The position numbers were made by a program, and so were the translations under genes. Of a stretch of DNA of 62,797 bases, positions 1 to 43,547 are shown in pieces. How positions within the stretch are numbered: the first letter of the stretch is position 1; each line of letters begins with the position of its first letter. This DNA is from Lachnospiraceae bacterium (GTDB lineage Bacteria > Bacillota_A > Clostridia > Lachnospirales > Lachnospiraceae). Location: positions 1-62,797 of the forward strand of contig QXWX01000038.1 in NCBI GenBank assembly GCA_009911175.1, written 5' to 3'. The notes below the pieces were generated by a model, which ran no database searches, had not been told where the DNA came from, and saw only the letters and a list, made by a program, of their open reading frames with translations.

Positions 1-1
1 C

Positions 2-370
2 CTCGGGTTTACACACTACTGTTCGAGAAGTAAGAATGGGAAGTTCAGGGTGAAGAGGAAAACCAGCAAGAAGAAGTTCACTAAGAAATGCAAAGAAATA
101 CACAGGAAGATAAAGAGCATGAGGATATGGGAACTGAAAGATATGATAAAGAGGGTGAACCAGATACTTGTAGGTTACTTTCATTATTATGGGATAACAG
201 ACAACTCAAAAAGTATAGCAAGATTCCGTCATGAAGTGGAGAAAAGCCTGTTTTATTGGCTGAACCGAAGGAGCCAGAAGCGAAGCTATACATGGGAAGA
301 TTTTCGCAGAATGCAGCAAGAGTACCCGCTGGCACCTGCGAAAATATATGTAAGTGTTTATGACAGTTGA
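2..370 (+). CDS. ltrA: group II intron reverse transcriptase/maturase, C-terminal part
   Basis: This is the C-terminal 122 residues of a group II intron-encoded protein; the 5' part lies outside the window and the frame is open from base 2. The first residues (LGFTHYC, then NGKFRVKRKTS) and the later GYFHYYGI stretch are typical of the end of the RT region and of the maturase (domain X) that helps the intron RNA fold and splice. The protein stops soon after domain X at VSVYDS, so I see no HNH endonuclease domain; some intron classes naturally lack it. Intron domains V and VI follow directly, which confirms the assignment. It may still be active if the missing part is intact. Confidence 0.88.
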   Translation, partial: LGFTHYCSRSKNGKFRVKRKTSKKKFTKKCKEIHRKIKSMRIWELKDMIKRVNQILVGYFHYYGITDNSKSIARFRHEVEKSLFYWLNRRSQKRSYTWEDFRRMQQEYPLAPAKIYVSVYDS

Positions 371-463
371 AGAACAATTAACTTTGCAAAGAGCCGGATG
401 CGGGAAAGCCGCACGTCCGGTTCCGTAGAGGGGTGTGGGGAGCAATCCCCACATCTACTCGAC
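371..463 (+). ncRNA. group II intron 3' end (domains V and VI)
   Basis: Bases 391-423 form the domain V hairpin: GAGCCGGATGCGG, a GAAA loop and CCGCACGTCCGGTTC. This is the catalytic core and is very well conserved in bacterial introns. Domain VI follows at about 427-463 as a hairpin with GTGGGGA/TCCCCAC arms. The intron probably ends after ATCTACTCGAC near 463; the last base is inferred from family pattern. Sequence downstream is the 3' exon side. Confidence 0.85.
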
Positions 464-679
464 AGAACAAAACAAGTATAAAAATGGCATTTTAGACATT
501 ATAAAATACCTTTGAAGCAATATCTATTCCATTTTTATCAAAATGAAATAAAATATAAATTGTAAAAGCTAAATACAGTTTTTACATAATAGATAGGTGA
601 TTGTTAGAAACCAAATATAGATATTGATGTTGGTTTTTAACAATGGCTTATAAATATACTAAAGGAAGGAGGCTGCTTT
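464..679 (+). other. AT-rich leader region of the RiPP locus
   Basis: No gene is seen between the intron end and the precursor peptide. The stretch is very AT-rich and must hold the promoter of the RiPP locus, but I cannot choose one -35/-10 pair with confidence. An excellent ribosome binding site, AAGGAGG at 666-672, lies 7 bases before the peptide ATG at 680. Confidence 0.5.
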
Positions 680-799
680 ATGAAGATACCTAAGATTGCA
701 GCCAGAGGCTGGACATGTATAGGCTGTGCAGGGTGTATAACATGCGCATTGTCGCCAACGGCAATTAGCCATGTTTCTGCAGTAAATATGTTAGATTAA
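680..799 (+). CDS. thurincin-H-like sactipeptide precursor (39 residues)
   Basis: A 39-codon gene with a strong ribosome binding site (AAGGAGG, 7-base spacer). It reads as a short leader (MKIPKIAARG) followed by a core starting WTC. Cysteines sit at 13, 16, 19 and 22, each three apart (CIGCAGCITC), and T27, S30, S33 and N36 are also three apart. Radical SAM enzymes of the sactipeptide class join Cys sulfur to alpha carbons in nested pairs; the predicted pairs are C22-T27, C19-S30, C16-S33 and C13-N36. Compared from memory with the thurincin H precursor, M1, P4, R9, W11, T12 and all four Cys align without gaps. The maturase, ABC exporter and protease genes follow. A ferredoxin-like reading of the Cys cluster is unlikely in so short a protein. 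Confidence 0.8.
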   Translation: MKIPKIAARGWTCIGCAGCITCALSPTAISHVSAVNMLD

Positions 800-810
800 C
801 GTTTATGGCC

Positions 811-845
811 TTTAGCAATGCAAGATTTCTTCTTGCATTGCTAAA
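811..845 (+). terminator. perfect 15-bp hairpin between peptide and maturase genes
   Basis: The arms TTTAGCAATGCAAGA and TCTTGCATTGCTAAA are exact reverse complements around a 5-base loop (826-830). It starts 11 bases after the peptide stop. No real T-run follows, so it may be a read-through terminator or an mRNA-stabilising or processing hairpin that keeps precursor mRNA in excess over the maturase. This arrangement is common behind RiPP precursor genes. Confidence 0.75.
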
Positions 846-908
846 AATGTTACATTGGATATCAAATTAAATAATATAAGTCAAATATAACACGATGGGA
901 GAAGCGAT

Positions 909-2255
909 ATGAATCAATATTTGTATTGGAAAGATAAATTACTTTTAGAGCATATAAATGAGGATTTAGTTTGCCTATATGTTATGAAAGAGGGAAAAGT
1001 AGAACGTAGTATTATTAATGACACTGCGGAAGAAATCATTACTTCAATTGATGGAACAAGTACTCTTGAAACTCTGATTGGAAAATTTGCGGAAAGATAT
1101 AAAGAGACAAAAAAAGATGTAGCTGCAAAAATTATTCCTTTTTTAGAGAATTTAAAAAATGAATATAAAATATATATTCAAAAGTGCGATATACCGAGAG
1201 CAAAACCAGTGGAGATAAAGAGAGTGAATCTGTACCCTAAGGTGGCCTCTTTGGAGATAACACACAGATGCAATCTGAAATGTCTGCATTGTTATGGGAG
1301 TTTTGGCGGTTCGGATCAAACCTGTATGCCGGTAAATAAAGTGAAAAAGTTACTCAGAGATTTGGATGATATGGGGGTTTTTATTATTGAGTTGACAGGT
1401 GGAGACTGTTTGGTTCATCCTCAGTTTATAGAAATATTGAATTTTGCACTTTCCTTAGGATTATTGAGAATTAATATACTGACAAACGGGCTTGCATTAA
1501 CAGATGAGATAAAAAAGGTTATTATAGAAAATAGAAAAAAAGTTTTTTTGCAAATTGACTTGCATAGTCTGAATGATGATTACTTGTTCTGGTTTACAGG
1601 AATAAAAAACACACTTGATGTTATCAAAAAAAACATAATGCAGCTTGCAAAAAACAACGTTGGTATGCGTATTGCTACAATAGTTACAAAACGCAATTTG
1701 GAAGAATTGGAGACAATTGCAGATTGGGTGCATGCCTTGGGAGTGGAGACGTATGCCATTACACCTGTAGTAAAATTAGGGAGGGCAAATTATTCTGATT
1801 CGGATATACTGCTCAATGAAGAAGAATATAAGCAGATGTTTGATTCGATAAAAAGAATTAATGAAAAATATGATGGATTAATTAAAATTCATGACAGTGA
1901 TAAGTTTAGACAAGGTCCTAATTGTGGATGCGTGTCTTCCCATGTTACTATTGATGCTGGAGGTGAGATTAAAATATGTACGATGGATACGAGAGAGTAT
2001 GTGAAAGGTAACTGGGGGAATGTTTTTGATAAAAATATTAAAGACATTTATGACGAAAGACAAAACGAGGTGATTTGTTTTTCTCAAATAGTTGCTCCTG
2101 ATGGAATGTCAGAGGAATGCAAAAATTGTAATAAAAGAGGATTTTGTTCATCATGTTTACTGAGAGCATTTGTAGCAAGTAGAGAAAAAAATGGTCAATG
2201 TAAGTGGTATCAAAATATATTGGGAGAACAGATGAAAGAGTTTCTGTTTTCATAA
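909..2255 (+). CDS. radical SAM/SPASM peptide maturase (sactisynthase-like)
   Basis: 448 residues. Residues 1-95 look like the small winged-helix peptide-recognition (RRE/PqqD-like) domain. The radical SAM [4Fe-4S] motif is C121-x3-C125-x2-C128 (CNLKCLHC), followed by a TGGD element near 163-166. The C-terminal SPASM part has C339, C341, C357, C390, C404, C407, C413, C416 and C431, enough for two auxiliary clusters. Enzymes of this build (AlbA, ThnB, SkfB) make Cys thioether crosslinks in the precursor. Its place 109 bases after the four-Cys peptide supports that role. GGGAGAAGC precedes the ATG. The exact crosslink type is inferred. Confidence 0.88.
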   Translation: MNQYLYWKDKLLLEHINEDLVCLYVMKEGKVERSIINDTAEEIITSIDGTSTLETLIGKFAERYKETKKDVAAKIIPFLENLKNEYKIYIQKCDIPRAKPVEIKRVNLYPKVASLEITHRCNLKCLHCYGSFGGSDQTCMPVNKVKKLLRDLDDMGVFIIELTGGDCLVHPQFIEILNFALSLGLLRINILTNGLALTDEIKKVIIENRKKVFLQIDLHSLNDDYLFWFTGIKNTLDVIKKNIMQLAKNNVGMRIATIVTKRNLEELETIADWVHALGVETYAITPVVKLGRANYSDSDILLNEEEYKQMFDSIKRINEKYDGLIKIHDSDKFRQGPNCGCVSSHVTIDAGGEIKICTMDTREYVKGNWGNVFDKNIKDIYDERQNEVICFSQIVAPDGMSEECKNCNKRGFCSSCLLRAFVASREKNGQCKWYQNILGEQMKEFLFS

Positions 2256-2275
2256 ATAATTTGAAAGGAGATTCT

Positions 2276-2989
2276 ATGCTTACTGTAAAATGCCTAAAAA
2301 AAAGTTATAATAATTTTAAGCTTGATGATATTTCTTTTTCATTAAGAAAAGGGAGAATAACAAGCTTTATTGGAAACAACGGTGCTGGAAAAACGACGAC
2401 ATTAAAGTGTGTTTTAGGATTAATTCCGTATGATTCTGGGAAAATTTCGATTGACGGTATTACATTGGCTCAGAATGAGCAGAAATATAAGAATAAGATT
2501 GGAATCGTCTTTGACAGTGGATGTTTTTACGATGAATTTACGCTGGAAGCAATGAAAAGTATCATAGCGGGAGCCTATGGAAATTGGGATGAAAGTATAT
2601 ACTTTGGATATATGGAGCGATTTGGCTTATCACGAACACAACAGATCAGTACGCTTTCAAAGGGAATGAAAATGAAATACAGCCTTGCATTAGCTTTGTC
2701 ACATCATGCGGACTTGCTTATACTGGATGAGCCATCCAGTGGATTGGATCCGAAAACCCGTCAGTTTTTTTGTGATGAGCTTCTGGAACAGAAAGAAAAA
2801 GGGAAAACCATATTTTTTTCTACACACATTACATCGGATATAGATAAGATAGGGGATGACATTGTTCTCATTCATAATGGAAGGATACTGAGAGAATGCT
2901 CTAAGCAAGAATTTCTGGCTGAATCAGTAAAGTATCCTCCAACCGTTGAAGATGCGATGATGGAAATTATCCGTAGGGAGGGGGAGTGA
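2276..2989 (+). CDS. ABC transporter ATP-binding protein of the RiPP locus
   Basis: 237 residues from the ATG at 2276, which has AAAGGAG just upstream; an in-frame start 72 bases earlier would overlap the maturase gene and lacks such a site. The Walker A motif is GNNGAGKT (33-40), the signature region is LSKGMKMK and Walker B is LLILDEPSSGLDP. This is the NatA/BcrA type of single-domain ATPase that pairs with a separate ABC-2 permease, here the next gene only one base downstream. It probably energises export of the modified peptide or producer self-protection. Confidence 0.9.
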   Translation: MLTVKCLKKSYNNFKLDDISFSLRKGRITSFIGNNGAGKTTTLKCVLGLIPYDSGKISIDGITLAQNEQKYKNKIGIVFDSGCFYDEFTLEAMKSIIAGAYGNWDESIYFGYMERFGLSRTQQISTLSKGMKMKYSLALALSHHADLLILDEPSSGLDPKTRQFFCDELLEQKEKGKTIFFSTHITSDIDKIGDDIVLIHNGRILRECSKQEFLAESVKYPPTVEDAMMEIIRREGE

Positions 2990-2990
2990 G

Positions 2991-3647
2991 ATGAAGATGT
3001 TTTATTTATTAAAAAAAGAGATATTATTGGCGGGCAATTATTTTTGGTTCTCGCTGGCCTGCGTGATTGGAGTGATGGTCTTTTTCAGCAATCAGGAGTC
3101 ACCGCGTTTTAGCAGTATTTATACATTGTTTATAGCAGTGAGTTTTTCATGTTATTTTCTTTTCAGTAATATTTTCGCAATGGAAGATAAATATAAAGGG
3201 AATCTATACTTAATGGCAATACCTTACAGAAAAAGAAATATTATTGGAGCAAAATATCTTCTGGCGATTTTGATGTACATTTTTGCTTTATGCTGCTATC
3301 AAGTTATGTTTTTTATCAAAATCCCGGGGATTACTTTGGTAAAATATAAACTGACTTTTTCCTGCGCAGCAATTGTTTTTTTAATTACATCAATTATTTT
3401 AAGTGTTTTTTTCGCATTATATTACTGTTTCTCCTATAGAAAGATAAAAGCTGCGTTAATTGTGGTAATGGTTTTTATACCAACATGGGGACTTATAGGA
3501 CTTGATCGTCTGACAAATTTGAATATTATTTACTATACACCGAAGGTTAGTACGATACCATTAATAATACTGGTGCTACTAAGTATGATTATCATGCGAG
3601 TGTCTGTAGAAATATCATTTTATTTTTTGAAAAAAAGAAATTTATAA
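2991..3647 (+). CDS. ABC-2 type permease of the RiPP locus
   Basis: 218 residues with about six hydrophobic segments and little soluble sequence, the size of a small ABC-2 membrane subunit. It starts one base after the ATPase stop behind GGGAGGGGGAG, so the two are translationally coupled. It should form the membrane pore for the preceding ATPase, moving the peptide out or removing it from the membrane as immunity. The sequence alone does not decide between these. AT-rich codon use matches the rest of the locus. Confidence 0.8.
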   Translation: MKMFYLLKKEILLAGNYFWFSLACVIGVMVFFSNQESPRFSSIYTLFIAVSFSCYFLFSNIFAMEDKYKGNLYLMAIPYRKRNIIGAKYLLAILMYIFALCCYQVMFFIKIPGITLVKYKLTFSCAAIVFLITSIILSVFFALYYCFSYRKIKAALIVVMVFIPTWGLIGLDRLTNLNIIYYTPKVSTIPLIILVLLSMIIMRVSVEISFYFLKKRNL

Positions 3648-3664
3648 ATTGTAGAGAGGAAAAA

Positions 3665-4834
3665 ATGAAAAAAAGGATAAACTTATGTTTGGCAATCTTA
3701 TTATATATAATATTAGCAGCTTCTTTGGCATACGCGGTTAAAAAACTTTCCATTTCTTTCTTGAGAAAAGAAATGTTCGATATATTGACCATTATTAGTT
3801 TCATGTTAGCATATATTTTTTCTATTTTAATTCATGAATTATCACATTTTTGTGCTTTTTGGTGTAGCGGAATAAAGGTTAGAATACTAGCGATGTTTGG
3901 AATTGTGATGATTTTTAATGAAAAGTCCATTAAAATATCTATATATCCGAAAATGTGTTTGAAAGGCGGATGGGTTTTGCCAAGGACATATACAATGGAG
4001 GCCTCTGAGGACTATGAAAAGTACAAAAAAAATTTTTGCTTCTCATTAATTATAGCTCCAATTGTGTCTCTCGCTATGATGTTTATATTAATTATAGTAG
4101 CTGGTCTTATACCAGTGGGGAAAACATATAAGGAATTTATGTTTTTTTATTCATTTTTTGCTATAGTGCTTAATATTACTTCATTATTTAGACTTGACAA
4201 TATGTGGGGAGATTATTATGCTTTTTATAAATACAAAATGGATGATTTCAGCTTCTTATATCATGTTTGTAGAAATTATGCTATTATGAGAAGCAATAAT
4301 GATATACCTTTAGGAATATATATGGTAAAAAAAGTTAAATCGGCACTTATTGAAAATTCAGCAGATATCAGAGAAAAATATATAGATGAAAGAATTGCAT
4401 ATGCAATTAATCTTGCCATTATGCGTTATTTTATATATCAGGAAAAAATAGAAGAAGAGATTGAAGAAATTATTTCTTTTTATATAGATATTCCAGAGAA
4501 AATTGCGATTGATGAGAAAGCAGAAGAGATAAAAATACTATTAATTCATCTCATCTATTATCTGAAGTATAATAATGATGAAAAATGGAAAAAATTAGTC
4601 GTTCTTTGCGAGGATTTGTTTGATGATAAAGAAGTAAATAGATATTATGCATTACAGATTAGACAATTTTGTTTTCAAGAAAATAATTCTGAGTTTTTGC
4701 TCGATAATAGTAATATTAAAACGTCATCCTCTTGGAGGATTGAACAAATGCTTGGGGTGAAACAGTTGGAAGAGAAATATTTATACCAGATTTTTGAGCA
4801 GAAGAATGTTTGTAATATTTTAGAGGCTAAGTAG
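3665..4834 (+). CDS. M50-type membrane metalloprotease-like protein
   Basis: 389 residues. The N-terminal half has several membrane segments with the zinc motif H57-E58-x2-H61 (HELSH) inside one of them, and a later FRLDNMWGDYYA stretch (about 175-186) that can supply the acidic third ligand, as in site-2/M50 proteases. The C-terminal 200 residues are soluble, charged and not recognised. RBS is AGAGGAAAAA before ATG 3665. In related RiPP loci a membrane protease removes the leader or helps immunity; here either role is inferred from position as the last gene of the locus. Confidence 0.7.
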   Translation: MKKRINLCLAILLYIILAASLAYAVKKLSISFLRKEMFDILTIISFMLAYIFSILIHELSHFCAFWCSGIKVRILAMFGIVMIFNEKSIKISIYPKMCLKGGWVLPRTYTMEASEDYEKYKKNFCFSLIIAPIVSLAMMFILIIVAGLIPVGKTYKEFMFFYSFFAIVLNITSLFRLDNMWGDYYAFYKYKMDDFSFLYHVCRNYAIMRSNNDIPLGIYMVKKVKSALIENSADIREKYIDERIAYAINLAIMRYFIYQEKIEEEIEEIISFYIDIPEKIAIDEKAEEIKILLIHLIYYLKYNNDEKWKKLVVLCEDLFDDKEVNRYYALQIRQFCFQENNSEFLLDNSNIKTSSSWRIEQMLGVKQLEEKYLYQIFEQKNVCNILEAK

Positions 4835-5012
4835 GATATTAAATAGGAGAATCAAGGGATAGAATGGGTGCCCGGTAAATAGGAAAATCATAGGAAGAGG
4901 ATGCCGCTATATGCTGCACATCATCAAGGTGTGGCATATAACGGCATTCTTTGATACCATCGTATGCAGAAAGGCTGCCAGTGGCAGGCTTTCTGTATTT
5001 TTCCGAAACCAA
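4835..5012 (+). terminator. hairpins ending the RiPP locus
   Basis: Two inverted repeats lie in this gap. An imperfect one spans 4900-4949 (GATGCCGCTATATG against CATATAACGGCATTC). A near-perfect one spans about 4967-5000 (CAGAAAGGCTGCCA / TGGCAGGCTTTCTG) followed by TATTTTTCC, a likely intrinsic terminator. A diverged copy of the second, with the same GTATGCAGAAA entry, ends the glg operon at about 61484-61520. Confidence 0.65.
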
Positions 5013-5041
5013 TTGATTGTAAGGAGTACAAATGCTATACT
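5013..5041 (+). promoter_or_regulatory. sigma-A promoter, copy 1 of a duplicated segment
   Basis: TTGATT (5013-5018), a 17-base spacer, then TATACT (5036-5041). It lies in a roughly 50-base segment repeated with a few changes at 5464-5515. It should drive the DUF2442 gene. Confidence 0.7.
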
Positions 5042-5133
5042 GAGAGAAAACACAGAGAGCTGCACAGCTGTTGATGAAAAATAGAAAGAAATGTTATTTC
5101 AGATTGAACCACTAAGATAGCGGAGGACTTGTG

Positions 5134-5445
5134 ATGGATGATAAGCTGAAAAAGTATTTTGCAAATCCAAGGAAAATCAAAGAAGTAAAACCGCTTGAAA
5201 ATTATATTCTGCTGCTTACATTTGATAATGGGGAAAAGCGGAAATATAACATGGCATGTGAATTAAAAGGGGTTTTTAGTATTCTAAAGAATAAAGAAAA
5301 ATTTTCCAGTGTTTTCATAAATGAAGTCGGTAATATTGCATGGAATATTGATGAAAATGTAGACAGCTCTGTACATTGGGAGAACCAAATTGACCTTTGT
5401 AAAGATATGCTATATATGGAAAGCATTCCGGCATCTTTTTCCTGA
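5134..5445 (+). CDS. DUF2442 family protein
   Basis: About 103 residues of the DUF2442 type: a small beta-rich protein with the pattern V-x-P-L-x-N-Y-x-L-x-L-x-F-D-N-G near the start and a central Y-N-M stretch. I start it at ATG 5134 because GGAGG at 5122-5126 is 7 bases away; a GTG one codon earlier is possible. Members of this family are often found near toxin-antitoxin or mobile genes, but no activity is established. It lies between two copies of the same promoter segment. Confidence 0.7.
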   Translation: MDDKLKKYFANPRKIKEVKPLENYILLLTFDNGEKRKYNMACELKGVFSILKNKEKFSSVFINEVGNIAWNIDENVDSSVHWENQIDLCKDMLYMESIPASFS

Positions 5446-5466
5446 GAGTAAATTTTTCGCATCTAA

Positions 5467-5495
5467 TTGATTGCAAAGAGCACAAATGTTATACT
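5467..5495 (+). promoter_or_regulatory. sigma-A promoter, copy 2 of the duplicated segment
   Basis: TTGATT (5467-5472), 17 bases, TATACT (5490-5495), with flanks matching copy 1 (TTGATTG.AA.GAG.ACAAATG.TATACTGA.GAAAACACA). It should drive the PF09820-type ATPase gene starting 50 bases downstream. Confidence 0.7.
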
Positions 5496-5544
5496 GAATG
5501 AAAACACAAAGAGTTATGCTAATCTTTGCAGGGCAGGTGAGAGA

Positions 5545-6831
5545 ATGAACCCATATAAAATCCCCTACGGTTTCAGTAATTACAAAGAGATCAGAACCGG
5601 GAATTATATCTACGTGGATAAAACGGAATATATCGAAGCACTGGAAGGTATGAACAGCAGATACCTTATTTTCCTGCGGCCGCGCAGATTCGGGAAGTCC
5701 TTGTTTGTGTCCATGCTGCATTATTATTACGACAGGAACAGCACAGCAGAATTTCAGCAGCTATTTGGAGGCACCTATATCGGGGAGCATCGGACGGCAC
5801 TTGCGAATCGGTATTATGTTCTTCGATTCGAATTTTCCGGTCTGGATGGAAGCAGTGAAGAACATCTGCAGAAGGCATTTTACGCGAAGGTTCATGCGGC
5901 AATCCGGAATTTTATCAAATATTACGGCGAGGATCTGCGGATCATGAAAAATGATACGGCGGATTCTGCCATGCTGCTGAATGATTTTCTGTCTGATTTT
6001 TACTCGGAAGGAAAAAAGCTCTATATCCTGATCGATGAATATGATCATTTTTCTACGAGCATCGTTGAAAATCCGGAGTTTTTCCATTCTGTAACGGGAA
6101 GGGACGGATTTGTGCGGAGGTTTTACGAGGTCCTTAAGGCACATACGGGAACCGGGTGCGTGGACCGCATGTTTATCACGGGAGTGACCAGCATGACTCT
6201 GGACAGCCTGACCAGCGGGTTCAATATCGCTAAGAATATTTCCATGAATCCAAGGGTAAACGCAATGGCCGGATTTACGGAAGCGGAGACGAGAAAAGTT
6301 CTGGGCGAGCTGGGAATCGCGGATTCGGATGCTGTCCTGAACCGGCTGACTGCGTATTACAACGGATATGTATTCTGCCATGACCCAAAGCGGGCAGAGC
6401 GGATCCTGAACAGTAATCTGGTGATGTATTTTCTGGACGAGTATACGGCGTTGGGGGAAGTCCGCCAGATGGCGGATGTGAATATCAAGAGCGATTACGG
6501 CAAGCTGACCAGTATGTTCGGGCTGTACCGGGATGCGGACAGCCGGACGGAGATCCTGCGCAATATAATAGAAGGAAAGCCGGCAGAATCGGATATTGTC
6601 ACGGATTTTACCATGTTTTCCGATACCTTCGGCAGAGATGAATTTTTATCGATGCTGTTTTATATGGGGCTGCTGACAATTAAGGAAACGGGGGCGGTCT
6701 ATGATGTGGTGCTGGAAACGCCGAACGCCGTGATCCGGGATGTATATTATAAATACTATGCGGATTATCTGAGATTGGAGAAAACGGAAAAGCGGGATGG
6801 AGTAAAAAGGGAGTGCGGCTTGGGAAACTGA
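5545..6831 (+). CDS. PF09820-type AAA-ATPase-like protein, C-terminally short
   Basis: 428 residues from ATG 5545 (start MNPYKIPYGFSNYKEI, the usual N-terminus of this family). P-loop-like motif RPRRFGKSL at 45-53 and Walker B-like LYILIDEYDHF. This family is common and multicopy in gut anaerobes and normally runs to about 550-590 residues with a PD-(D/E)XK nuclease domain at the C-terminus. Here the protein ends soon after the linker (VYYKYYADYLRLEK), with an unrelated tail, so the nuclease domain is missing. It may be a decayed copy. Biological role is not established. Confidence 0.75.
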   Translation: MNPYKIPYGFSNYKEIRTGNYIYVDKTEYIEALEGMNSRYLIFLRPRRFGKSLFVSMLHYYYDRNSTAEFQQLFGGTYIGEHRTALANRYYVLRFEFSGLDGSSEEHLQKAFYAKVHAAIRNFIKYYGEDLRIMKNDTADSAMLLNDFLSDFYSEGKKLYILIDEYDHFSTSIVENPEFFHSVTGRDGFVRRFYEVLKAHTGTGCVDRMFITGVTSMTLDSLTSGFNIAKNISMNPRVNAMAGFTEAETRKVLGELGIADSDAVLNRLTAYYNGYVFCHDPKRAERILNSNLVMYFLDEYTALGEVRQMADVNIKSDYGKLTSMFGLYRDADSRTEILRNIIEGKPAESDIVTDFTMFSDTFGRDEFLSMLFYMGLLTIKETGAVYDVVLETPNAVIRDVYYKYYADYLRLEKTEKRDGVKRECGLGN

Positions 6832-7619: not shown

Positions 7620-7672
7620 GTAACTTGCAGTTTGAAATCGTTGTATTGAAAGCAGCCAAAGCAGGTGATTTT

Positions 7673-8929
7673 ATGTTTTATGAATTTTCATTTCGTAATT
7701 TTAGATCGTATAAAAATGAGGCGGTTATTGATTTTACAGCAAAACCAATCTCTGAATTTGAAAAATCGCTGTTACATGGAAAGGATACGGATTTACTGCC
7801 CGTTTGTGCAATATATGGACCTAATGGCGGTGGAAAGAGCAGCGTTTTGCTGGCTTTTCACGCGCTTCAGGATCTTGTGCTTTCTCCGTTGACGCAGCTG
7901 GCATTTATGAAAAATAAAAATGAAAAGCTGGCGGAGACTTCTTTGACTGAGTGGAATAAAGGCATTTCAATCAGAAATGAAGATGAACTTTATTATAAAT
8001 GGGACGATGAAGGAAAGTTCATGCCGACAGATTACAGTATTCTGTTCCAGGTGGACGAGCATAAATACCGCTATGAATTGAGCACGAAGGATGCCACTGT
8101 AATAGAGGAGAACCTTTATATGGAGAATGAGGACGGTGATACAGACGCTCTTTTTGAACGGGATGACGAAGGGATTTACCTGTGTGAAGAACTGGAAAAC
8201 CTTGATATTGAAAACCTGAATGAAGGGCTTCCGCTTCTATCCTATATCGGCATGTTTAAAAATATCGAAAAGATCGATAATGCGCTTCGCTTTTTTTATG
8301 GCATACAGACCATCAATTTTGATGCGCCGTCACGTGATCGGACTATATTTGTAAAGTCAATAGAAAGAGATAAAAAAAGAATTCTGAACGTGATTCGCAG
8401 TATGGGCATTGATATATATGATGTACGTGTAGAGTATGAGGAGAGTGGAGATGTCAGGGAAATCTATACAAAACACAAATTAGAAAATGACACATTCCGG
8501 GAATTAAAGTTTCATGAGGAATCCAGCGGAACACGGAAAATTTTCAGTATTCTTCCAGTCATTCTCTCAGGGATAGAAAAAGGGCGGTTTTTTGTTATTG
8601 ATGAACTCGACGCAAAACTTCATCCGGCGCTGTTGCAGAGGATCATTGAATTGTTTACGGATCCAGAGGTAAACCGCAACGGGGCACAGATGCTGTTTAC
8701 ATCTCATGATATGACAACCATGAGCAATGAAGTATTTAGGAGGGATGAGATATGGTTTTCTGCTTTGAATGGGCATGATGAATCTGTGCTGTATTCGCTG
8801 GTAGATTTTCGAAAGGAAGATGGAAAAAAGCCGCGTAAGGATGAGACCTACAGCAAGCAATACCTCGAAGGACGCTATGGAGCTGATCCATATCTTAAAC
8901 GCATGGTAAACTGGGAGGTGGCAGATTGA
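7673..8929 (+). CDS. RloA-like AAA ATPase (AAA_21 type)
   Basis: 418 residues from ATG 7673 (MFYEFSFRNFRSYKNE, a normal start for SMC/ABC-like AAA_21 proteins; AGGTGA lies upstream). Walker A is GPNGGGKSS (49-57), the ABC-like signature is ESSGTRKIF and Walker B is FFVIDELDAKLHP. Proteins of this kind pair with RloB in restriction loci and in AbiL-type abortive infection, where the ATPase is thought to sense the phage and control the partner. The next gene is RloB-like and overlaps by four bases, so the pair is made together. Confidence 0.8.
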   Translation: MFYEFSFRNFRSYKNEAVIDFTAKPISEFEKSLLHGKDTDLLPVCAIYGPNGGGKSSVLLAFHALQDLVLSPLTQLAFMKNKNEKLAETSLTEWNKGISIRNEDELYYKWDDEGKFMPTDYSILFQVDEHKYRYELSTKDATVIEENLYMENEDGDTDALFERDDEGIYLCEELENLDIENLNEGLPLLSYIGMFKNIEKIDNALRFFYGIQTINFDAPSRDRTIFVKSIERDKKRILNVIRSMGIDIYDVRVEYEESGDVREIYTKHKLENDTFRELKFHEESSGTRKIFSILPVILSGIEKGRFFVIDELDAKLHPALLQRIIELFTDPEVNRNGAQMLFTSHDMTTMSNEVFRRDEIWFSALNGHDESVLYSLVDFRKEDGKKPRKDETYSKQYLEGRYGADPYLKRMVNWEVAD

Positions 8930-9615
8930 GCCTGAAGCCGAAAAAGAAAAGCGATCTTAAGAAAATTGAAGCAAAGATGAAGGCAAAAGAAAGTAAAATG
9001 AATACGAGAACCATGCTTCCGCCGTATACGATGATCATCAGCGAGGGCATAAAGACAGAACCAATCTACCTGCGTGGTTTTGTTTCGAGGATTAATGCCA
9101 GATATAAAGATATTACGAAAGAAAATCATATTTCAGTATATGGTACCGGAAGAAATACAAATGGGCTGATTCGATTTGTCGATAAGAAAATTGCTCATAA
9201 TGAATGGAAAAAATATCAGAAATTCTGGCTGGTATATGATAAAGATGATTTTCCTCTGGACAATTTTGACAATACACAATTTGAAGCAGAGTCACGAACG
9301 GATATTTCCATGGCGGTCGCATGGTCTAATGAAAGTGTAGAATTGTGGTTTCTGCTGCATTTTCAGGAATATATCTCAGACAATGGAAGAGCACAGTATA
9401 TTGAGTTATTAAATAAGTATTTCGATTATTCAAAAACGCGAGAAGAACTTTATGATAAATTGTTGGAGCTTGGTTCTTATGAAGCGGCAAAAAGAAGGGC
9501 TAAAAAGGCATATAAAGAATGTCTGGACGCCGGAATAAACGCGCCTTCTGCAATGGTTCCGGTTACAAGGATGTTTGAATTGGTAGAAGAACTGGAATCA
9601 TATCTGGAAGCTTAA
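8926..9615 (+). CDS. RloB-like protein (possible Toprim-fold effector)
   Basis: 229 residues. It starts with TTG at 8926 inside the stop of the ATPase gene (TTGA overlap), with GGGAGGTGG 7 bases upstream. Residues 37-50 (IISEGIKTEPIYLR) and 101-108 (WLVYDKDD) give a conserved Glu and a D-x-D(D) motif in the order expected for a Toprim-like metal site, the usual RloB pattern. RloB proteins accompany RloA ATPases and are assumed to be the nuclease or effector side of the pair. The N-terminal 25 residues are very lysine-rich. Confidence 0.78.
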   Translation: MSLKPKKKSDLKKIEAKMKAKESKMNTRTMLPPYTMIISEGIKTEPIYLRGFVSRINARYKDITKENHISVYGTGRNTNGLIRFVDKKIAHNEWKKYQKFWLVYDKDDFPLDNFDNTQFEAESRTDISMAVAWSNESVELWFLLHFQEYISDNGRAQYIELLNKYFDYSKTREELYDKLLELGSYEAAKRRAKKAYKECLDAGINAPSAMVPVTRMFELVEELESYLEA

Positions 9616-9700: not shown

Positions 9701-10396
9701 ATGAAGCTATTTCATTTATTTGGAAAATCTGTAAAAAAGGAACCGATTCAGAAGCCTGAAAAGGAACTCACATTGGAAGCGTGCGGAATTTATTCCGGCA
9801 TGCGTGTCGAGATCATGGACGAAAAGAAGCAGCTGATCTTCATCGCAAAGCTGATGAGTCTGCACGGGAACAGTGCAAAGCTGCACCAGTATTCGGAATC
9901 AGAGTTTTTATTTGACGAAGAGGAAATGAAGATCAGGATCCGCGGTTACAGCGATATTGATAAAAAAGTGATCCACATGGAAGGAACTCTGAAGCAGGGG
10001 AAGAACAGCATCTGGCCGGTGGAGGGACTGACATTTAACAAATCCGGCAATGACCGCGCCTTTTACCGCTTGAATACGGATCTGGACGGCAGTATGATAC
10101 TGACGGAAGGGGCAGAGACAGAAAAGGAACCCTGCAGGCTGCTCAATATCAGCGTAGGCGGCGCATATATCAGGACGGAGCCTGCATTGGAGCTGGGGGA
10201 CAGGTTCTTTCTGCAGGTGAAGCTGCACCCGGACAGAGACAGCTCCCTGATCTTAACAGAAGTATGCCGCATTGTCGAAAGAGAGGATGAGCTGTTCGAG
10301 TACGGATGCCAGTTCATAGAACTCAATGAAGCTGACCGGAAGCAGATCATCCAGGCGATTGAACGGGAGGGGAAGAAAGAAGGCGCAGCCTTATGA
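9701..10396 (+). CDS. PilZ-domain c-di-GMP receptor coupled to jetA
   Basis: 231 residues. The N-terminal part (about 25-110) resembles the YcgR-type domain and the C-terminal part is PilZ. Both c-di-GMP binding motifs are present: R119-x3-R123 (RAFYR) and N149-x-S151-x-G153-G154 (NISVGG). AGCAGGAGGG precedes ATG 9701. Its stop overlaps the jetA start by four bases (ATGA), so it is translated with the SMC-like operon. This suggests c-di-GMP input to that complex, which is inference from coupling only. It is not obviously linked to motility genes here. Confidence 0.8.
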   Translation: MKLFHLFGKSVKKEPIQKPEKELTLEACGIYSGMRVEIMDEKKQLIFIAKLMSLHGNSAKLHQYSESEFLFDEEEMKIRIRGYSDIDKKVIHMEGTLKQGKNSIWPVEGLTFNKSGNDRAFYRLNTDLDGSMILTEGAETEKEPCRLLNISVGGAYIRTEPALELGDRFFLQVKLHPDRDSSLILTEVCRIVEREDELFEYGCQFIELNEADRKQIIQAIEREGKKEGAAL

Positions 10397-11745
10397 ATTT
10401 AATCAGCAAGATCCCAAAAGAGTTTTACAAGCTTTTTGCAAGCAAATATATGGACTATTACCAGCGTTTCCTGACCGCGATCTATGAGGAATCCGGCCGT
10501 TCCTACTCTCTGCTCGGCCTCACAGAGCGGGAATGCCGCATGATTATGAACGAGCAGATCGCGGCGGAGACGCTGGACTGGAGCGAGGAGCAGTTTGACG
10601 AGGAGGGCGAGCTTCTGACCAGGAGCAACATGGCCTCGATCTGTCTGAAACATCTGGAAGACTGGGGATGGCTCAGACGGGACTACGATGAAGTTCTGGA
10701 CAGCTATGTGGTCTCCTTTCCGGAATACAGCCAGCTGTTTGTGGAGCTGTTTCAGCGCCTTTACAGCGAAGAGGACACCCGGGAGCGGGAAAGTGTCCTG
10801 GCAGTCTACAGCTATCTGTACACCTACAGCTCCGACAGCGAAAAAAATAATGACATCCTGAAAAGTGCGCTGCAGGCATCCCGTTCCCTTCTGCAGATGC
10901 TTTCCAACATGCAGGAGGGCATGAGAGGGTACTTTGACGAGCTGTCCAGGCAGAGGAGCTTCCTCGGGATCCAGGAAGTTCTCGTAAAGGAAATGAATAA
11001 CAACGAGAGCAGGAAATACGCGATCCTCACTACCACAGACAGCTTTTACCGATATAAGGAGGCGGTCAAGGAACTGATCGACCGGAACCTCAGTGAAAAT
11101 GAGGCGAGGAAGCAGGAACTGGAGGGGAGGCAGCGGGAGCTTGCCGATGAGGCAATGGACATCATCCTTCTGATCGAACGGGAATTTGACGCCATTGAGC
11201 GCAGATACAATAAGCTGATCGAGCAGAAGACCCTGTTTGCCAGCCGGGCGGCGGCAAGGATTCGGTACATCCTCATGGAGGGCGCACTGGAAGAAGATCC
11301 GACCGCGGTGCTGGTCAAGCTTTTAAACCAGAGCAGACGAAGCACGGAGATTTTGGAAAAGCTCTCCGACCGGATGCGCCTGACAGAGCCCTTCCGCACG
11401 GTCACTGGACAGAGCCTGGCCCGCCGAAGGAATACGGAGAAAACAGCATTTGCCCCCCAGGCGGTGGCCCGGGATGCAAAGCGGCAGGAGGAAGGGCTGG
11501 ATGAATTTGTTCTGAAGCCCCTTTACACCAGACGGGAGATTGCCGAGTTCCGGAGAAAAAATGAACGGAACGGAGCATTTACAGTTACGGAGGATACCGT
11601 GCGTTCCCCGGAAGACCTGGAGAAATTATTTTTCGTATGGCAGGATGCGGTGGAGATTGCGGACGATGCAAAAAAGATTGAGATCGGAGAGGAACTGGAG
11701 AACCGGGAAGGGTGCCGCTTCTCCGCGCTGACGATTCAGGAGTGA
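10393..11745 (+). CDS. jetA: JetA-like kleisin of a Wadjet/MksF system (DUF5716 type)
   Basis: 450 residues, mostly helical, beginning MNLISKIPKEFYKLFASKYM, the form I associate with DUF5716, the JetA of one Wadjet subtype. It corresponds to the MukF/kleisin subunit, which bridges the SMC heads and carries the JetB dimer. A helix-rich charged middle (about 220-300) probably forms the coiled-coil part. The four-base overlap with pilZ and the following jetB and jetC genes make one operon. The family assignment comes from gene order, size and similarity recalled from memory. Confidence 0.75.
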   Translation: MNLISKIPKEFYKLFASKYMDYYQRFLTAIYEESGRSYSLLGLTERECRMIMNEQIAAETLDWSEEQFDEEGELLTRSNMASICLKHLEDWGWLRRDYDEVLDSYVVSFPEYSQLFVELFQRLYSEEDTRERESVLAVYSYLYTYSSDSEKNNDILKSALQASRSLLQMLSNMQEGMRGYFDELSRQRSFLGIQEVLVKEMNNNESRKYAILTTTDSFYRYKEAVKELIDRNLSENEARKQELEGRQRELADEAMDIILLIEREFDAIERRYNKLIEQKTLFASRAAARIRYILMEGALEEDPTAVLVKLLNQSRRSTEILEKLSDRMRLTEPFRTVTGQSLARRRNTEKTAFAPQAVARDAKRQEEGLDEFVLKPLYTRREIAEFRRKNERNGAFTVTEDTVRSPEDLEKLFFVWQDAVEIADDAKKIEIGEELENREGCRFSALTIQE

Positions 11746-11828
11746 CGGAATCAGGCGGCGCGTCCGGTTTAGAGTGAGACTCCAGAGCTGCTGTCCTATT
11801 ACATTTAATATAGAAAGGAATCCTACAA

Positions 11829-12464
11829 ATGATCACATATATGGAAGAGCTATCCGCGTCCGAGGCGGAAAATCTGAAAAAGACCATTTCCAGATTATTT
11901 CGCCAGACCTGCATTCTGCAGCTGCGGTATGATCCGGTCACGCTGACGCCGAGGGATAATCCGGACTATGAAATATGCGTCCGCCACAGGCATTTTATCG
12001 AAAATTATCTTGCCGTGCTGGGGTGCGAGATGGAGCATGACCCGCAGGAGCACATTTTCCGGCTGAAAGGGGAAGGGGCGGAGACAGAAAAGTTCAGCCA
12101 GACCCCCACCATGCTCATCCTGCTCGTACGGATGATCTATCGGGACAAGATCCTGGGGGAGGGGCTGGGCGCAACAGTTACGAGCCTGGGAGAGATCCGG
12201 GAATATGGGGCCAATACCGGGCTTTTGAACCGGAAGCTGACGGCTGCGGAGTGGCGGGAGGCGCTGTATCTGATGAGCAGGCACCAGATGATCGAGCTTC
12301 CGGCGGCGGTCCGTGACGTGAAAGATGAGACACCGATCTATCTGTACAGCACCATCCTTCTCTACGTGAGCGCGGCGGATATGAACGAACTGATCGAAGA
12401 ATACAGGGAGGAGGCAGACGATGAAGCAATCCAAGAAAATCTTCCGGCGGATGCTGATCAATAA
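11829..12464 (+). CDS. jetB: JetB-like MukE-type subunit (DUF4194)
   Basis: 211 residues in the size range of DUF4194/JetB, the MukE-like winged-helix protein that binds the kleisin. It starts MITYMEELSASEAEN with GAAAGGAA upstream. The typical pattern is present: an N-terminal short helix, then RLFRQTCILQLRYDP, and a C-terminal acidic tail. Its last 44 bases overlap the start of jetC, so translation is coupled and the stoichiometry is likely controlled. Confidence 0.75.
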   Translation: MITYMEELSASEAENLKKTISRLFRQTCILQLRYDPVTLTPRDNPDYEICVRHRHFIENYLAVLGCEMEHDPQEHIFRLKGEGAETEKFSQTPTMLILLVRMIYRDKILGEGLGATVTSLGEIREYGANTGLLNRKLTAAEWREALYLMSRHQMIELPAAVRDVKDETPIYLYSTILLYVSAADMNELIEEYREEADDEAIQENLPADADQ

Positions 12465-15400
12465 CTGGGGAGGCATCAGCCATAAGATCATGGAATTTCA
12501 CGAATACGTGAACCTGTTCAGCGGCAAGAGCGGTTCCGGAAAATCCACGGTTATGGATGCGATTCAGGTAATCCTTTACGGCAGCGTGTCGGCTGCCTTT
12601 TTGAATAAAGCGGCGGATGACGCGAAAAATAAGAGAAGTGTCCTCAGCTACCTGCGGGGCGCCCAGAAGGACGGAACCTCAAACCGGGAAAATGTAGACT
12701 TCTGCTCCCAGATCGTGCTGGAGCTGGAGGATACGGGAGGCCGGCTGATGACCTGCATCGGAGCCGTATTTGAGGTGGGGAGCCAGGATACGGAGCTGCG
12801 GAAATACCATTTTTTCAGTCATTCGGGGCGGCTTCCGGAGGACGGATATCTGACGGACCAGGGCATTCCCTACACCTCCGCCCAGCTGAAAAAGTTGATT
12901 GAGGCCCGCAGCCATTCCGAGGACAACCGGGGACGGGTTGAGGTGAACCGGATGTACCCTTCACGGGAAGCCTATCTGGGCACCCTGTACGATTCCATTT
13001 TCGGATACATCGACCCGGGCCGGCTGATGACCATGGAAAAAAGCGCCATTGCGCTTCGGATGGCGGACGGCACCGGGCAGTTCATCAAGGATTATATGTT
13101 TCCAAAAAGTAAGGAGGACACGGTGTCCGCGATCAGCCGGCAGCTTGGCGCGTACCGGGAGATCAAGGAAAAGGTGGACGATCTGGAGCATCGGATCGAG
13201 ATCCTGGATGAGGTCCACAGCGCCAACCAGGAGCTGGTTCGGATCCGGGCGGACAGGATGCGCGCGGAGACGGTCCTTCGGATCGTGGATATCGAAAGCT
13301 GCAAGACCCGGCTGGAAGCAAAAAAAGAGGATCTGGAAGCGATTTCTGTAAAAATTGCCGAGCTGGAGGAGCGGTATGGAACTCTGGACGCGGACAAGAA
13401 GGAAAAAACGGAAGAGCTGATTGAGGTCAAGGCAGAGCTCCATTCCAGCGATTACGGCGTGAAGCAGAAGGAAATGGAAGAACTGAAAAATACCATCGGC
13501 CTTTTGAAAGGAAATGCCAGGCAGTGGCAGGAGATCCTGCAGAATCTGAAGGAATGGGAGACGGACGAGGAGATCAGCGGCTACGTCAGCAACCCCACCC
13601 TGCAGTGTCTGGAGGAGATCCTGGACGGTGAGATATCGGAGTCCGCCCTGGACAAGCTGCGTAATGGCCTTCAGGATGCAATGGAAATGATCGGGGAGGA
13701 GCTTGCGGAGCTCAACGACGGCATCCGCGCCGCGGCCCGGGAGCTGAGTGAAAAAAAGGAGATGGCGGAGGATCTGAAAAATGACCGCAAGCCTTACCGG
13801 AAGGAATTGAAAAGCGCCCGGGCACAGCTCCAGAGCGAGCTGAGCAGCCAGTACGGCCGGACCATCCATGTGGAAATCTTTGCGGACCTGTTTGACATTG
13901 TGGATGAAAAATGGAAGGATGCCGTTGAGGGAAGGCTGGGCCGAATTAAGCACAGCCTGGTGACCGAGCCTCAGTATGCTCTGGACGCTGCCAGGATCTT
14001 CCGCAGGATGAAGCGGAAGGAATACGAGGAAGTGGACCTGATCAATACAGCGGCAATCAAAAGAGACGAACCCGCGGCCGAAGCCGGTACGCTTTATGAG
14101 GCAGTCCGGGCCGGCGAACCTTATGCGGACCTGTGCCTGAGAAGGTATCTGGGAAGGATCTGCAAATGCGAGACCGTGGAAGAGCTCCATGCAGTCCGGG
14201 ACGGGGTGACGCCGGACTGCTATTCCTACAGCAATTATATACTCCGCCATCTGCGGGAGGACGATTACAGACGATTTTCCTGTATCGGGACCAGGGTCTC
14301 CAAGGCGAAGCTAAAGGAGCTGGAAGAGGAGATCTATCAACTGGAACAGCGGCAGATCGGGGATCTGCAGATGCGGGAAACGCTGAACCGGGCGAAGAAG
14401 CTGGAACAGCTGAACCAGAGTTCGGAACAGCTTCTGCGTCTTTCCAAGGCTCACAGAGAGTTGGAGGTTTATCTGGATAAGCAGGAGCAGCTTGCGAAGG
14501 AATTGAAAGAACTGGAAGACGGTACGCTGACCGCAGAGCTGAAAGCACAAAAGGCGCTGTTGGAGCAGGGGATCGCGGAGCTGTCCCGCATACAGGAACG
14601 GGTCAATAAGGAACGGATCGGCCGGGAGGGCGACCTCCGGGCGGCACAGAAGGAATACGGAGACTTTCAGGATAGACTGTCCGCGCTGCAGGAGGGCTTT
14701 CGGGCGGATGAACGTCTGCTGGCGGAGGTCCGGGAAGGTCTGGAATTTCAGAGCGAGGCCGCATACCGCAGAAAGCAGCATGACTTGTGCCAGCATCTTG
14801 CCGGGCAGGAGGAGGAGCAGGAAGAACAGCGGATCCTGGCCCGAAATCGTTTCAACAGGGAATACCCGGCCTATGGATTTTCCGGGGTAGAACATGAGAA
14901 TACTGTGTACGATAAGTTGAGGGAAGAACTGAAACGGGATTATGCGCCCCAGTACAAGGAGGACTTTGAGAACCAGTACCGGCAGGTCTACCATTCCCTC
15001 CGGGAAAATGTGATTGCCACTATCCACGGCGAGATCAAGGCGGCATACCGGCACAAGCGGGAGATCAACCAGATGCTGTCCAGGATCCGGTTTTCCGACA
15101 GCACCTACCAGATCGACATCCTGCCGGCTGAAAACGAGAACGGACAGTTTTACGAAATGCTGATGGCGCCGGAGCTGGACAGCAAGGTACTGGACAATGA
15201 CGGCTTCGAAGGCCAGCTCAGCATCGGGGAGGACGCGTTTTTTCAGAAGTACGAGCAGCAGATCCAGAGGCTGACGGAAAAGTTCATGCCCCCCAGAGAC
15301 GGGGAGGGTGACAGCCGTTCCCGCCATAACCAGGAGATGGAACGCTATGCGGACTACCGTAATTATCTGACCTTCAGCATGTATGAGCGGGTGGAGGACG

Positions 15401-15792
15401 ACCAGGGAAATGTGAAGAAAAACGCGGTGGATGAAATGGCCGGGAGGGACTCCGGCGGGGAAGGACAGAACCCCAAGTACGTCGCGCTGCTGGCCGGGTT
15501 TGCCATGCTCTATATGCAGCAGAGCAACCGGGATTCCAAGATCCGCCTGGTGCTATTGGATGAGGCATTTTCCAAGATGGATAAGGAACGGAGCGAGGTC
15601 TGCCTGCGCTATGCGAGGGAGTTGGAGCTGCAGCTCATCGTCTGCGTTCCGGACGAACGTCTCCAGTCGCTGATCCGCAATGTGGACAGTGTGTATGGGT
15701 TCCGGCGGTATCAGAATCAGATTACTATGATGCATATTGATAAAGGGGAATATCTGGAGCTGATGCGCGGGGGCGGGAGAGGTATTACCTGA
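12421..15792 (+). CDS. jetC: JetC-like SMC ATPase (MukB-like)
   Basis: 1123 residues. Walker A is G35-KSGSGKST, in the usual SMC position after NLFSGKSG. Long coiled coils (about 270-480 and 640-830) flank a hinge-like globular part, and the C-terminal head has the signature region SGGEGQNPKYVAL and Walker B LVLLDEAFSKMD. These are the features of MukB/JetC, which extrude DNA loops. The start at 12421 is supported by GGAGGAGG just upstream. The normal fourth gene, jetD (Toprim nuclease), does not follow; a hicB remnant does, and its homology runs into the last codons of jetC. Confidence 0.85.
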   Translation: MKQSKKIFRRMLINNWGGISHKIMEFHEYVNLFSGKSGSGKSTVMDAIQVILYGSVSAAFLNKAADDAKNKRSVLSYLRGAQKDGTSNRENVDFCSQIVLELEDTGGRLMTCIGAVFEVGSQDTELRKYHFFSHSGRLPEDGYLTDQGIPYTSAQLKKLIEARSHSEDNRGRVEVNRMYPSREAYLGTLYDSIFGYIDPGRLMTMEKSAIALRMADGTGQFIKDYMFPKSKEDTVSAISRQLGAYREIKEKVDDLEHRIEILDEVHSANQELVRIRADRMRAETVLRIVDIESCKTRLEAKKEDLEAISVKIAELEERYGTLDADKKEKTEELIEVKAELHSSDYGVKQKEMEELKNTIGLLKGNARQWQEILQNLKEWETDEEISGYVSNPTLQCLEEILDGEISESALDKLRNGLQDAMEMIGEELAELNDGIRAAARELSEKKEMAEDLKNDRKPYRKELKSARAQLQSELSSQYGRTIHVEIFADLFDIVDEKWKDAVEGRLGRIKHSLVTEPQYALDAARIFRRMKRKEYEEVDLINTAAIKRDEPAAEAGTLYEAVRAGEPYADLCLRRYLGRICKCETVEELHAVRDGVTPDCYSYSNYILRHLREDDYRRFSCIGTRVSKAKLKELEEEIYQLEQRQIGDLQMRETLNRAKKLEQLNQSSEQLLRLSKAHRELEVYLDKQEQLAKELKELEDGTLTAELKAQKALLEQGIAELSRIQERVNKERIGREGDLRAAQKEYGDFQDRLSALQEGFRADERLLAEVREGLEFQSEAAYRRKQHDLCQHLAGQEEEQEEQRILARNRFNREYPAYGFSGVEHENTVYDKLREELKRDYAPQYKEDFENQYRQVYHSLRENVIATIHGEIKAAYRHKREINQMLSRIRFSDSTYQIDILPAENENGQFYEMLMAPELDSKVLDNDGFEGQLSIGEDAFFQKYEQQIQRLTEKFMPPRDGEGDSRSRHNQEMERYADYRNYLTFSMYERVEDDQGNVKKNAVDEMAGRDSGGEGQNPKYVALLAGFAMLYMQQSNRDSKIRLVLLDEAFSKMDKERSEVCLRYARELELQLIVCVPDERLQSLIRNVDSVYGFRRYQNQITMMHIDKGEYLELMRGGGRGIT

Positions 15793-42458: not shown

Positions 42459-42479
42459 GAAAAAGCAAAATAAATATTC

Positions 42480-42566
42480 AGGGGAGCTTGTATCGGCAGG
42501 CTGAGAGGAAGTAATCAACTTCGACCCTTATACCTGATGCGGATAATGCCGCCGTAGGAAGTCTGA
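42480..42566 (+). ncRNA. TPP (THI-box) riboswitch
   Basis: The conserved THI elements appear in order: GGGGAGC at 42481, CTGAGAG at 42501, GACCC near 42523, ACCTGAT at 42532, GGATAATGCC at 42541 and GCCGTAGGAAG at 42551. It binds thiamine pyrophosphate and should favour the terminator hairpin just downstream, shutting off thiM-thiE-thiD. Confidence 0.95.
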
Positions 42567-42579
42567 GCTGATTTTTTTC

Positions 42580-42611
42580 GGAGATACCGTACCAGGTATC
42601 TCCTGTTTTTT
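42580..42611 (+). terminator. riboswitch-controlled terminator
   Basis: GGAGATACC (42580-42588) and GGTATCTCC (42595-42603) followed by T7, placed right after the TPP aptamer. Confidence 0.9.
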
Positions 42612-42660
42612 TGCGCATAGATACGAAACGGTATCAAAATTGTAACTCAACAGGGTCAAA

Positions 42661-42700
42661 ATCATTCCAACCGCACAGGTGGAAATCATTTTGCCCGTAG
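42661..42700 (+). repeat. CCGCACAGGTGGAAAT intergenic element
   Basis: ATTCCAACCGCACAGGTGGAAATCATTTTGCCC-type sequence lies between terminator and thiM. Related segments occur at about 36546-36572, 45725-45750 and, on the other strand, 57445-57466. Confidence 0.45.
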
Positions 42701-42725
42701 CACAACTGTACGAGGAGGTAATCAG

Positions 42726-43547
42726 ATGCGAAAGGAACTGCTTGAAAATGTCAGAAATTCACACCCGCTGATCCACAATATCACCAATTATGTGACCGTC
42801 AACGACTGCGCCAATATCCTGCTGGCCTGCGGCGGCTCGCCGATCATGGCGGATGATGTGGAGGAAGCGGAGGAGATCACGTCCATCTGCGGCGGGCTGA
42901 ACATCAATATCGGTACACTGAATCAGAGAACCATTCCCGCCATGCGAAAGGCCGGGATCAAGGCAAACGAGCTGGGGCACCCGGTGGTATTGGATCCGGT
43001 GGGGGCCGGCGCGTCCAGGCTTCGTACCGGCACAGCCATGGATCTGCTGGAGCATGTGAGATTTTCGGTCATCCGCGGAAATATTTCCGAGATCAAGACA
43101 TTGGCGCTGGGGAGCGGCAGCACCAGAGGCGTGGACGCGGATCTTGCGGATGCGGTGACAGAAGAAAATCTTGCGGAGGCAGCAGCATTCGCAAAAGAAT
43201 TTTCCGGGAAAACAGGGGCGGTGATCGCGGTCACGGGAGCCATTGATATCGTGGCCGATGAAAAGACGGCCTATTGCATTTTCAACGGACATCCTATGAT
43301 GAGCAGCATCACAGGAACCGGATGCCAGCTTACCGCCCTGACAGCGGCTTATGTCACAGCGAATCAGGAGCACACGCTGGAAGCCGCTGCCGCCGCGGTC
43401 TGCGCCATGGGAATCTGCGGGGAAAAAGCACGGCAGCGCATGACAGAGCAGGACGGAAATGCATCCTACCGCAATCATATCATCGACGCGATGTGCCATC
43501 TTACAGGAGAGGAACTGGAGCAAAAAGCGAGATATAAAGTATTATAA
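42726..43547 (+). CDS. thiM: hydroxyethylthiazole kinase
   Basis: 273 residues. It phosphorylates the thiazole moiety (5-hydroxyethyl-4-methylthiazole) with ATP in thiamine salvage. Conserved ThiM segments are seen: PLIHNITNYVTVNDCANILLA at the start, GGLNINIGTL, LDPVGAGAS and the C-terminal GTGCQLTALTAAY that shapes the phosphate site. GAGGAGGT precedes the ATG. First gene behind the TPP riboswitch; thiE and thiD follow. No thiazole or pyrimidine synthesis genes are present, so the operon serves salvage. Confidence 0.95.
   Translation: MRKELLENVRNSHPLIHNITNYVTVNDCANILLACGGSPIMADDVEEAEEITSICGGLNINIGTLNQRTIPAMRKAGIKANELGHPVVLDPVGAGASRLRTGTAMDLLEHVRFSVIRGNISEIKTLALGSGSTRGVDADLADAVTEENLAEAAAFAKEFSGKTGAVIAVTGAIDIVADEKTAYCIFNGHPMMSSITGTGCQLTALTAAYVTANQEHTLEAAAAAVCAMGICGEKARQRMTEQDGNASYRNHIIDAMCHLTGEELEQKARYKVL

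Follow-up and report, generated by a model that had tools for sequence, protein, structure and literature searches.

A probable thurincin H-type sactipeptide operon in a Lachnospiraceae bacterium

Introduction

The sactipeptides characterised by 2026 numbered only about ten (PMC13239113). In thurincin H of Bacillus thuringiensis the links are C4-S28, C7-T25, C10-T22 and C13-N19, with acceptors 6, 9, 12 and 15 residues past the last Cys, and the thn cluster holds three identical precursor genes together with the protease gene thnP, thnD/E/T, thnR and thnI (PMC8172795). Gnavucin D of the human gut bacterium Mediterraneibacter gnavus strain HB038 (Lachnospiraceae), published in 2026, is a thurincin H-like sactipeptide with a leader of 9 amino acids, a core of 29 amino acids and masses that fit four crosslinks; its cluster encodes five tandem precursors, one radical S-adenosylmethionine (SAM) enzyme, the regulator ganR, the exporter ganT and ATP-binding cassette (ABC) genes predicted as immunity genes, and its authors report that no gene for leader removal was found there (PMC13239113). 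Here we analyse a stretch of 62 797 nucleotides (hereafter the window) from a Lachnospiraceae bacterium (contig QXWX01000038.1, assembly GCA_009911175.1), which carries in its first ~5 kb a five-gene locus that we consider, with good confidence, to be a chromosomal operon for a sactipeptide bacteriocin of thurincin H type.

Among other described systems, subtilosin A differs in being macrocyclic with three thioethers (PMC8172795, PMC13239113), and SkfB, the maturase of sporulation killing factor, forms one thioether in a cyclic 26-amino-acid peptide (PMC8172795). Another paper on this theme concerns SCIFF-type peptides of pig isolates. The open-licence literature searched contained no published account of the operon described here, and no paper besides PMC13239113 naming gnavucin.

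Results

All five genes lie on the forward strand with open reading frames (ORFs), where the first-pass annotation, made from the DNA alone, had placed them. A precursor peptide of 39 amino acids (680–799), preceded by a ribosome-binding site (AGGAAGGAGG, 663–672) seven bases before its ATG, is followed by a radical SAM enzyme of 448 amino acids with an RRE, a probable sactisynthase (909–2255), a PmtA-like ABC ATPase (2276–2989), an ABC-2 type permease (2991–3647; PF13346, ABC2_membrane_5, 60.1 bits) and an M50-type membrane metalloprotease of 389 amino acids (3665–4834). The Cys residues of the peptide are at positions 13, 16, 19 and 22. The motif CxxCxxCxxC was found once in the six frames of the whole window, in the peptide itself, the DNA pattern for WTC(xxC)3 had a single hit in the window and none in 100 shuffles, and a single precursor ORF was present in 466–950; no Pfam or NCBIfam model matched the peptide at E values up to 1. 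Cleavage at the predicted site would yield a leader of nine residues, MKIPKIAAR, and a core of 30 amino acids, GWTCIGCAGCITCALSPTAISHVSAVNMLD, with a predicted monoisotopic mass of 2985.295 if cut after R9 and carrying four thioethers.

Genes and small ORFs were catalogued at thirteen loci, twelve with a relative of the enzyme and one (L101) with the ABC pair alone; the other loci from the alignment-based scan described below were set aside as distant. The first-pass annotation would have given up its reading had the peptide gene been absent from related loci; eight of the twelve have, upstream of the enzyme gene, a small ORF with spacing-three Cys, and two of these eight (L100 and L107) have identical enzymes. 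No such ORF was found in L004, L005 (an AlbA-like locus), L083 or L108, where the contig ends. The five-gene set, for which the same annotation had proposed a search, is complete and in the window's order in L099, and L098 has the five genes in that order with the M50 gene apparently broken by an insertion. L106 reads peptide, enzyme, weak M50 match, ATPase and an unmatched ORF of 230 amino acids; the L102 enzyme has an internal stop.

The precursor of L098 (MKTPKIVARGWTCVGCAGCTACWASATAISHVSAANIFG), in the same place as that of the window, is 69% identical to it. Over 40 codons including the stop, 11 are the same, 17 are synonymous and 12 change the residue, base differences at codon positions 1, 2 and 3 number 6, 8 and 25, and the non-synonymous and synonymous divergences (dN and dS) are 0.23 and 4.1, the latter saturated. 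Judged by these codon changes, among which synonymous ones dominate, the precursor is a real gene. When 5.8 billion predicted proteins were searched with the L098 precursor, a single cluster was recovered, with 98% identity to that precursor, and the peptide of the window was not; the precursors of this enzyme group are therefore mostly missed by gene callers, as the first-pass annotation had suspected for this one.

A strong hairpin of −23.7 kcal/mol (797–852, forward strand; z −4.67) lies between the peptide and enzyme genes. Clear hairpins followed the peptide gene in six of the eight loci folded, the others being L098 (z −6.13), L099 (−6.28), L106 (−3.21), L084 (−3.20) and L107 (−4.02), and were not clear in L102 (−1.58) or L003 (0.08). 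Position rather than letters appears to be conserved, because the hairpin sequences look unrelated by eye. The element is probably a partial terminator or mRNA stabiliser and may allow excess production of the precursor.

The enzyme matched Radical_SAM (71.1 bits), PqqD, representing the RRE (26.7 bits, cut-off 23.4), and SPASM just under its cut-off (21.1 against 21.5 bits). It has the features of sactisynthases, namely a CxxxCxxC SAM motif, the RRE and C-terminal auxiliary-cluster Cys, and its position beside a small precursor is that of a sactipeptide locus. The SAM-cluster residues C121, C125 and C128 are present in 20 of 21 aligned rows, the exception (P0002) beginning at residue 140; of the C-terminal C404, C407, C413, C416 and C431, the residues C407, C413 and C416 are present in all 21. 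The first-pass annotation had suggested comparison with AlbA and SkfB. AlbA (NF012164), like the window's enzyme a radical SAM enzyme of 448 amino acids, was the best curated NCBIfam model at 143.1 bits, far under its cut-off of 850; the weak matches included PapB at 58.7 bits and the SCIFF maturase at 58.1 bits. SkfB led both fold rankings (PDB 6efn, 17% identity in the fold alignment). The AlbA-like protein encoded at L005, from Bacillus tequilensis, shared 27% identity with the enzyme over 409 residues; named relatives from metagenome-assembled genomes of Hespellia and of a Lachnospiraceae bacterium were 56% and 42% identical. The ThnB Cys at 165/169/172 and 449/455/458 lie 42–44 positions further on than those of the window's enzyme (PMC8172795). 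P0018 was considered as ThnB and set aside as probably not that protein, because its first Cys is at 134 rather than 165 (numbering of PMC8172795); it matched 0 of 299 genomes in an order-level sample around a Bacillus genome, a negative that carries little information. Two proteins of 309 amino acids, P0001 and P0002, are 99% and 81% identical to the enzyme but start only at residue 140, without the SAM-cluster Cys; they reflect either a gene-calling fault or broken genes.

The enzyme is rare: at E ≤ 1e-40 it had matches in 3 of 397 genomes sampled from the family (334 genera), 3 of 392 from the order and 2 of 398 from the phylum. The samples overlap, G074 being matched in two of them, and the distinct genomes with a match number seven. 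A scan of genome contigs with the single enzyme sequence gave no match. From an alignment-based contig scan the best 80 of 529 loci had 21–35% identity, and gene order was examined in L003, L004 and L005 alone; 67 loci (L001–L067) were scanned for Cys-rich small ORFs. Viral contigs gave 18 distant matches (20–27% identity), which were not used. Subtilosin-like precursors with five Cys at spacing three (CKLCAGCTxCMFCGP) stand beside a related enzyme clade in L003, L084, L100 and L107, one of these loci lying on an Anaerococcus plasmid typed as conjugative; they are possibly a bridge between the subtilosin and thurincin types. On a Paraclostridium plasmid (L083) an enzyme relative directly follows annotated AgrB and autoinducer peptide genes, and no precursor with spacing-three Cys was found there.

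Against the thurincin H precursor, the nine shared positions claimed by the first-pass annotation were exact and gapless: M1, P4, R9, W11, T12 and the four Cys. The window's peptide has Cys at 13, 16, 19 and 22, WTC, four Cys at spacing three on the N-side of the core and a short putative leader, all as in thurincin H, and both systems have one RRE radical SAM enzyme and ABC genes. A search of plasmids with the thurincin H precursor gave no match at E values up to 1. The register of acceptors was compared for the precursors of the window, L098, L099 and L106. Residues 6, 9, 12 and 15 past the last Cys of the window's peptide are A, H, A and M, and those one residue earlier are T, S, S and N; the earlier register gives T, S, S, N in L098 and G, S, S, A in L099, and does not fit L106 (L, G, G, T). 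We therefore infer crosslinks C13-T18, C10-S21, C7-S24 and C4-N27 in core numbering, that is, a predicted hairpin turn one residue shorter than that of thurincin H with its core of 31 amino acids.

The closest family of the ATPase was NCBIfam PmtA (214 bits, cut-off 350), with 92.7 bits for ABC_tran, and its relatives in L098, L099, L101, L106 and L083 are 46–77% identical. Its best solved-structure matches, ABCA-type chains and then bacterial ABC ATPases, say little on function. The ABC pair recurs in the congeneric genome G008 (L101) at 77% and 63% identity; neither a precursor nor an enzyme was found in the 15 kb inspected there, and the genome gave no enzyme match at E ≤ 1e-20. This orphan pair (L101 3181–8110) adjoins genes that are agr-like by eye. 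The M50 protein matched PF02163 at 28.0 bits (cut-off 27.2) and has the HExxH motif as HELSH at residues 57–61; this motif and a later GD are kept in all four sequences compared, including the first piece of the L098 protein. No sequence relative of it was found in PDB at E values up to 1. It is a candidate leader peptidase.

To the left, the 3' part of a group II intron occupies 1–465 on the forward strand (maturase C-end 50–370, Rfam group II domain 389–463; RF00029 51.4 bits, GIIM 38.7 bits) and extends past the window's edge. Congeneric genomes carry copies 99.8% identical in G001 (C33), ending at window position 467, and 92.7% identical in G004 (C303), ending at 465. The intron is not counted in the operon because these copies sit elsewhere in congeners, and its end at ~465 is taken as the left limit of sequence assignable to the operon. 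No thnR-like regulator or ThnT- or ganT-like exporter was found in 466–4834, the window opening just 679 bases before the peptide gene. To the right, 4839–5062 and 5453–6799 match G004 contig C318 at 96%; the remainder of this 4.4-kb contig carries different genes, none of them from the operon, and none of 12 genomes of the genus has an enzyme match at E ≤ 1e-20. On this comparison the operon is therefore an accessory piece in this lineage; of the words sampled from the window, 23% are shared by G001, the nearest of the genomes compared. Phage DNA gave no match to window 1–5600.

Several neighbouring features were also observed. An element of ~50 bases with a short inverted repeat (4950–5000) has dozens of copies in G001 and G004 and several in G006 and G008. 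Right of the operon lie an AbiLi/AbiLii pair of abortive-infection type (7625–9615; PADLOC 266 and 79 bits) and Wadjet-type genes (10393–15792), comprising JetA (PF18982, 266.5 bits) together with a large ATPase whose Walker B is of SbcC type, which suggests a defence island beside the bacteriocin operon. A thiamine pyrophosphate riboswitch (69 bits) precedes a hydroxyethylthiazole kinase gene at 42470–43547.

Discussion

Related loci, enzyme family and predicted fold together give good support to a thurincin H-type sactipeptide operon, and the operon is real and intact and very probably makes a thurincin-type sactipeptide of a kind already known. The RRE at the N-terminus of the enzyme would bind the short leader (residues 1–9), and the enzyme would then generate a 5'-deoxyadenosyl radical and join the four core Cys to the alpha-carbons of the four acceptors, giving a nested hairpin with thurincin H geometry and the shorter turn. 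The leader would be cut off after R9, probably by the M50 protease; the ABC pair would shield the producer by pumping the peptide out, and may serve for its export as well, and the mature product would inhibit Gram-positive competitors.

Some observations weigh against this reading. Nine identities to thurincin H arose in 101 of 100 000 shuffles of the whole peptide and in 26 805 of 100 000 when M1 and the four Cys were fixed, so that by count alone P4, R9, W11 and T12 add little and the likeness of the precursor rests almost wholly on Cys spacing. Significance beyond the Cys was accordingly dropped, and the argument rests on Cys spacing and gene context. The window also has a single precursor gene, not three as in thn, and no regulator or ThnT-like exporter in 466–4834. 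Compared by description, it likewise differs from gnavucin D in that it has one precursor gene, carries a gene for an M50 protease and lacks a regulator or ganT-like gene in that interval, and resembles it in a thurincin H-like precursor, predicted leader length, single radical SAM enzyme, ABC genes and host family (PMC13239113). The operon type proposed by the first-pass annotation thus stood; the surprise of such a peptide outside Bacillus was not supported, because gnavucin D comes from the Lachnospiraceae member M. gnavus (PMC13239113).

Several other explanations were weighed. A ranthipeptide, with Cys linked to beta or gamma carbons, would be in keeping with the enzyme type, as RRE-radical SAM-SPASM enzymes make both classes, and with the PapB and SCIFF maturase matches. 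However, AlbA scores well above these and SkfB leads both fold rankings, and the precursor has the tight, nested Cys spacing of thurincin H that ranthipeptide and SCIFF precursors lack; we judge this class very improbable. Far more credible, if still the less probable choice, is that the ABC pair is an exporter and not an immunity device. Its closest family, PmtA, is a phenol-soluble modulin exporter that also protects its producer, and no other exporter was seen in 466–4834, but G008 has the pair with neither precursor nor enzyme found in the 15 kb inspected, as an immunity gene might. The orphan pair fits self-protection, with export also possible, and on this comparison the pair looks more like immunity than export; a role of the ATPase in one or both is probable.

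The product might instead be a signal or a self-acting killing factor and not a bacteriocin aimed at others, to which L083 lends something, with annotated AgrB and autoinducer peptide genes immediately upstream of its enzyme gene; yet the ABC pair fits immunity, and thurincin H (PMC8172795) and gnavucin D (PMC13239113) are described as antibacterial, and such a role seems distinctly unlikely. That the cluster is decaying or silent, with no product in this strain, is also unlikely: the intron ends ~215 bases before the peptide gene and could cut off a regulator or promoter, the M50 gene of L098 is apparently broken and the L102 enzyme has an internal stop, but here all five frames are open, the enzyme has both its SAM motif and its C-terminal Cys, and a strong ribosome site precedes the peptide gene.

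The thurincin H-type operon is compact, comes with a precise predicted mass and could be used to ask if sactipeptide leaders are cut by an M50 protease and how the hairpin turn is set by the enzyme. More tentatively, and with the odds against it, the locus may belong to a clostridial, probably Lachnospiraceae, thurincin-type subfamily with a shorter turn (T, S, S, N), its own M50 intramembrane protease cutting a nine-residue leader, and orphan ABC pairs as resistance genes. If that is true, the orphan ABC pairs of peptide-less congeners would be resistance genes in a bacteriocin contest in the gut.

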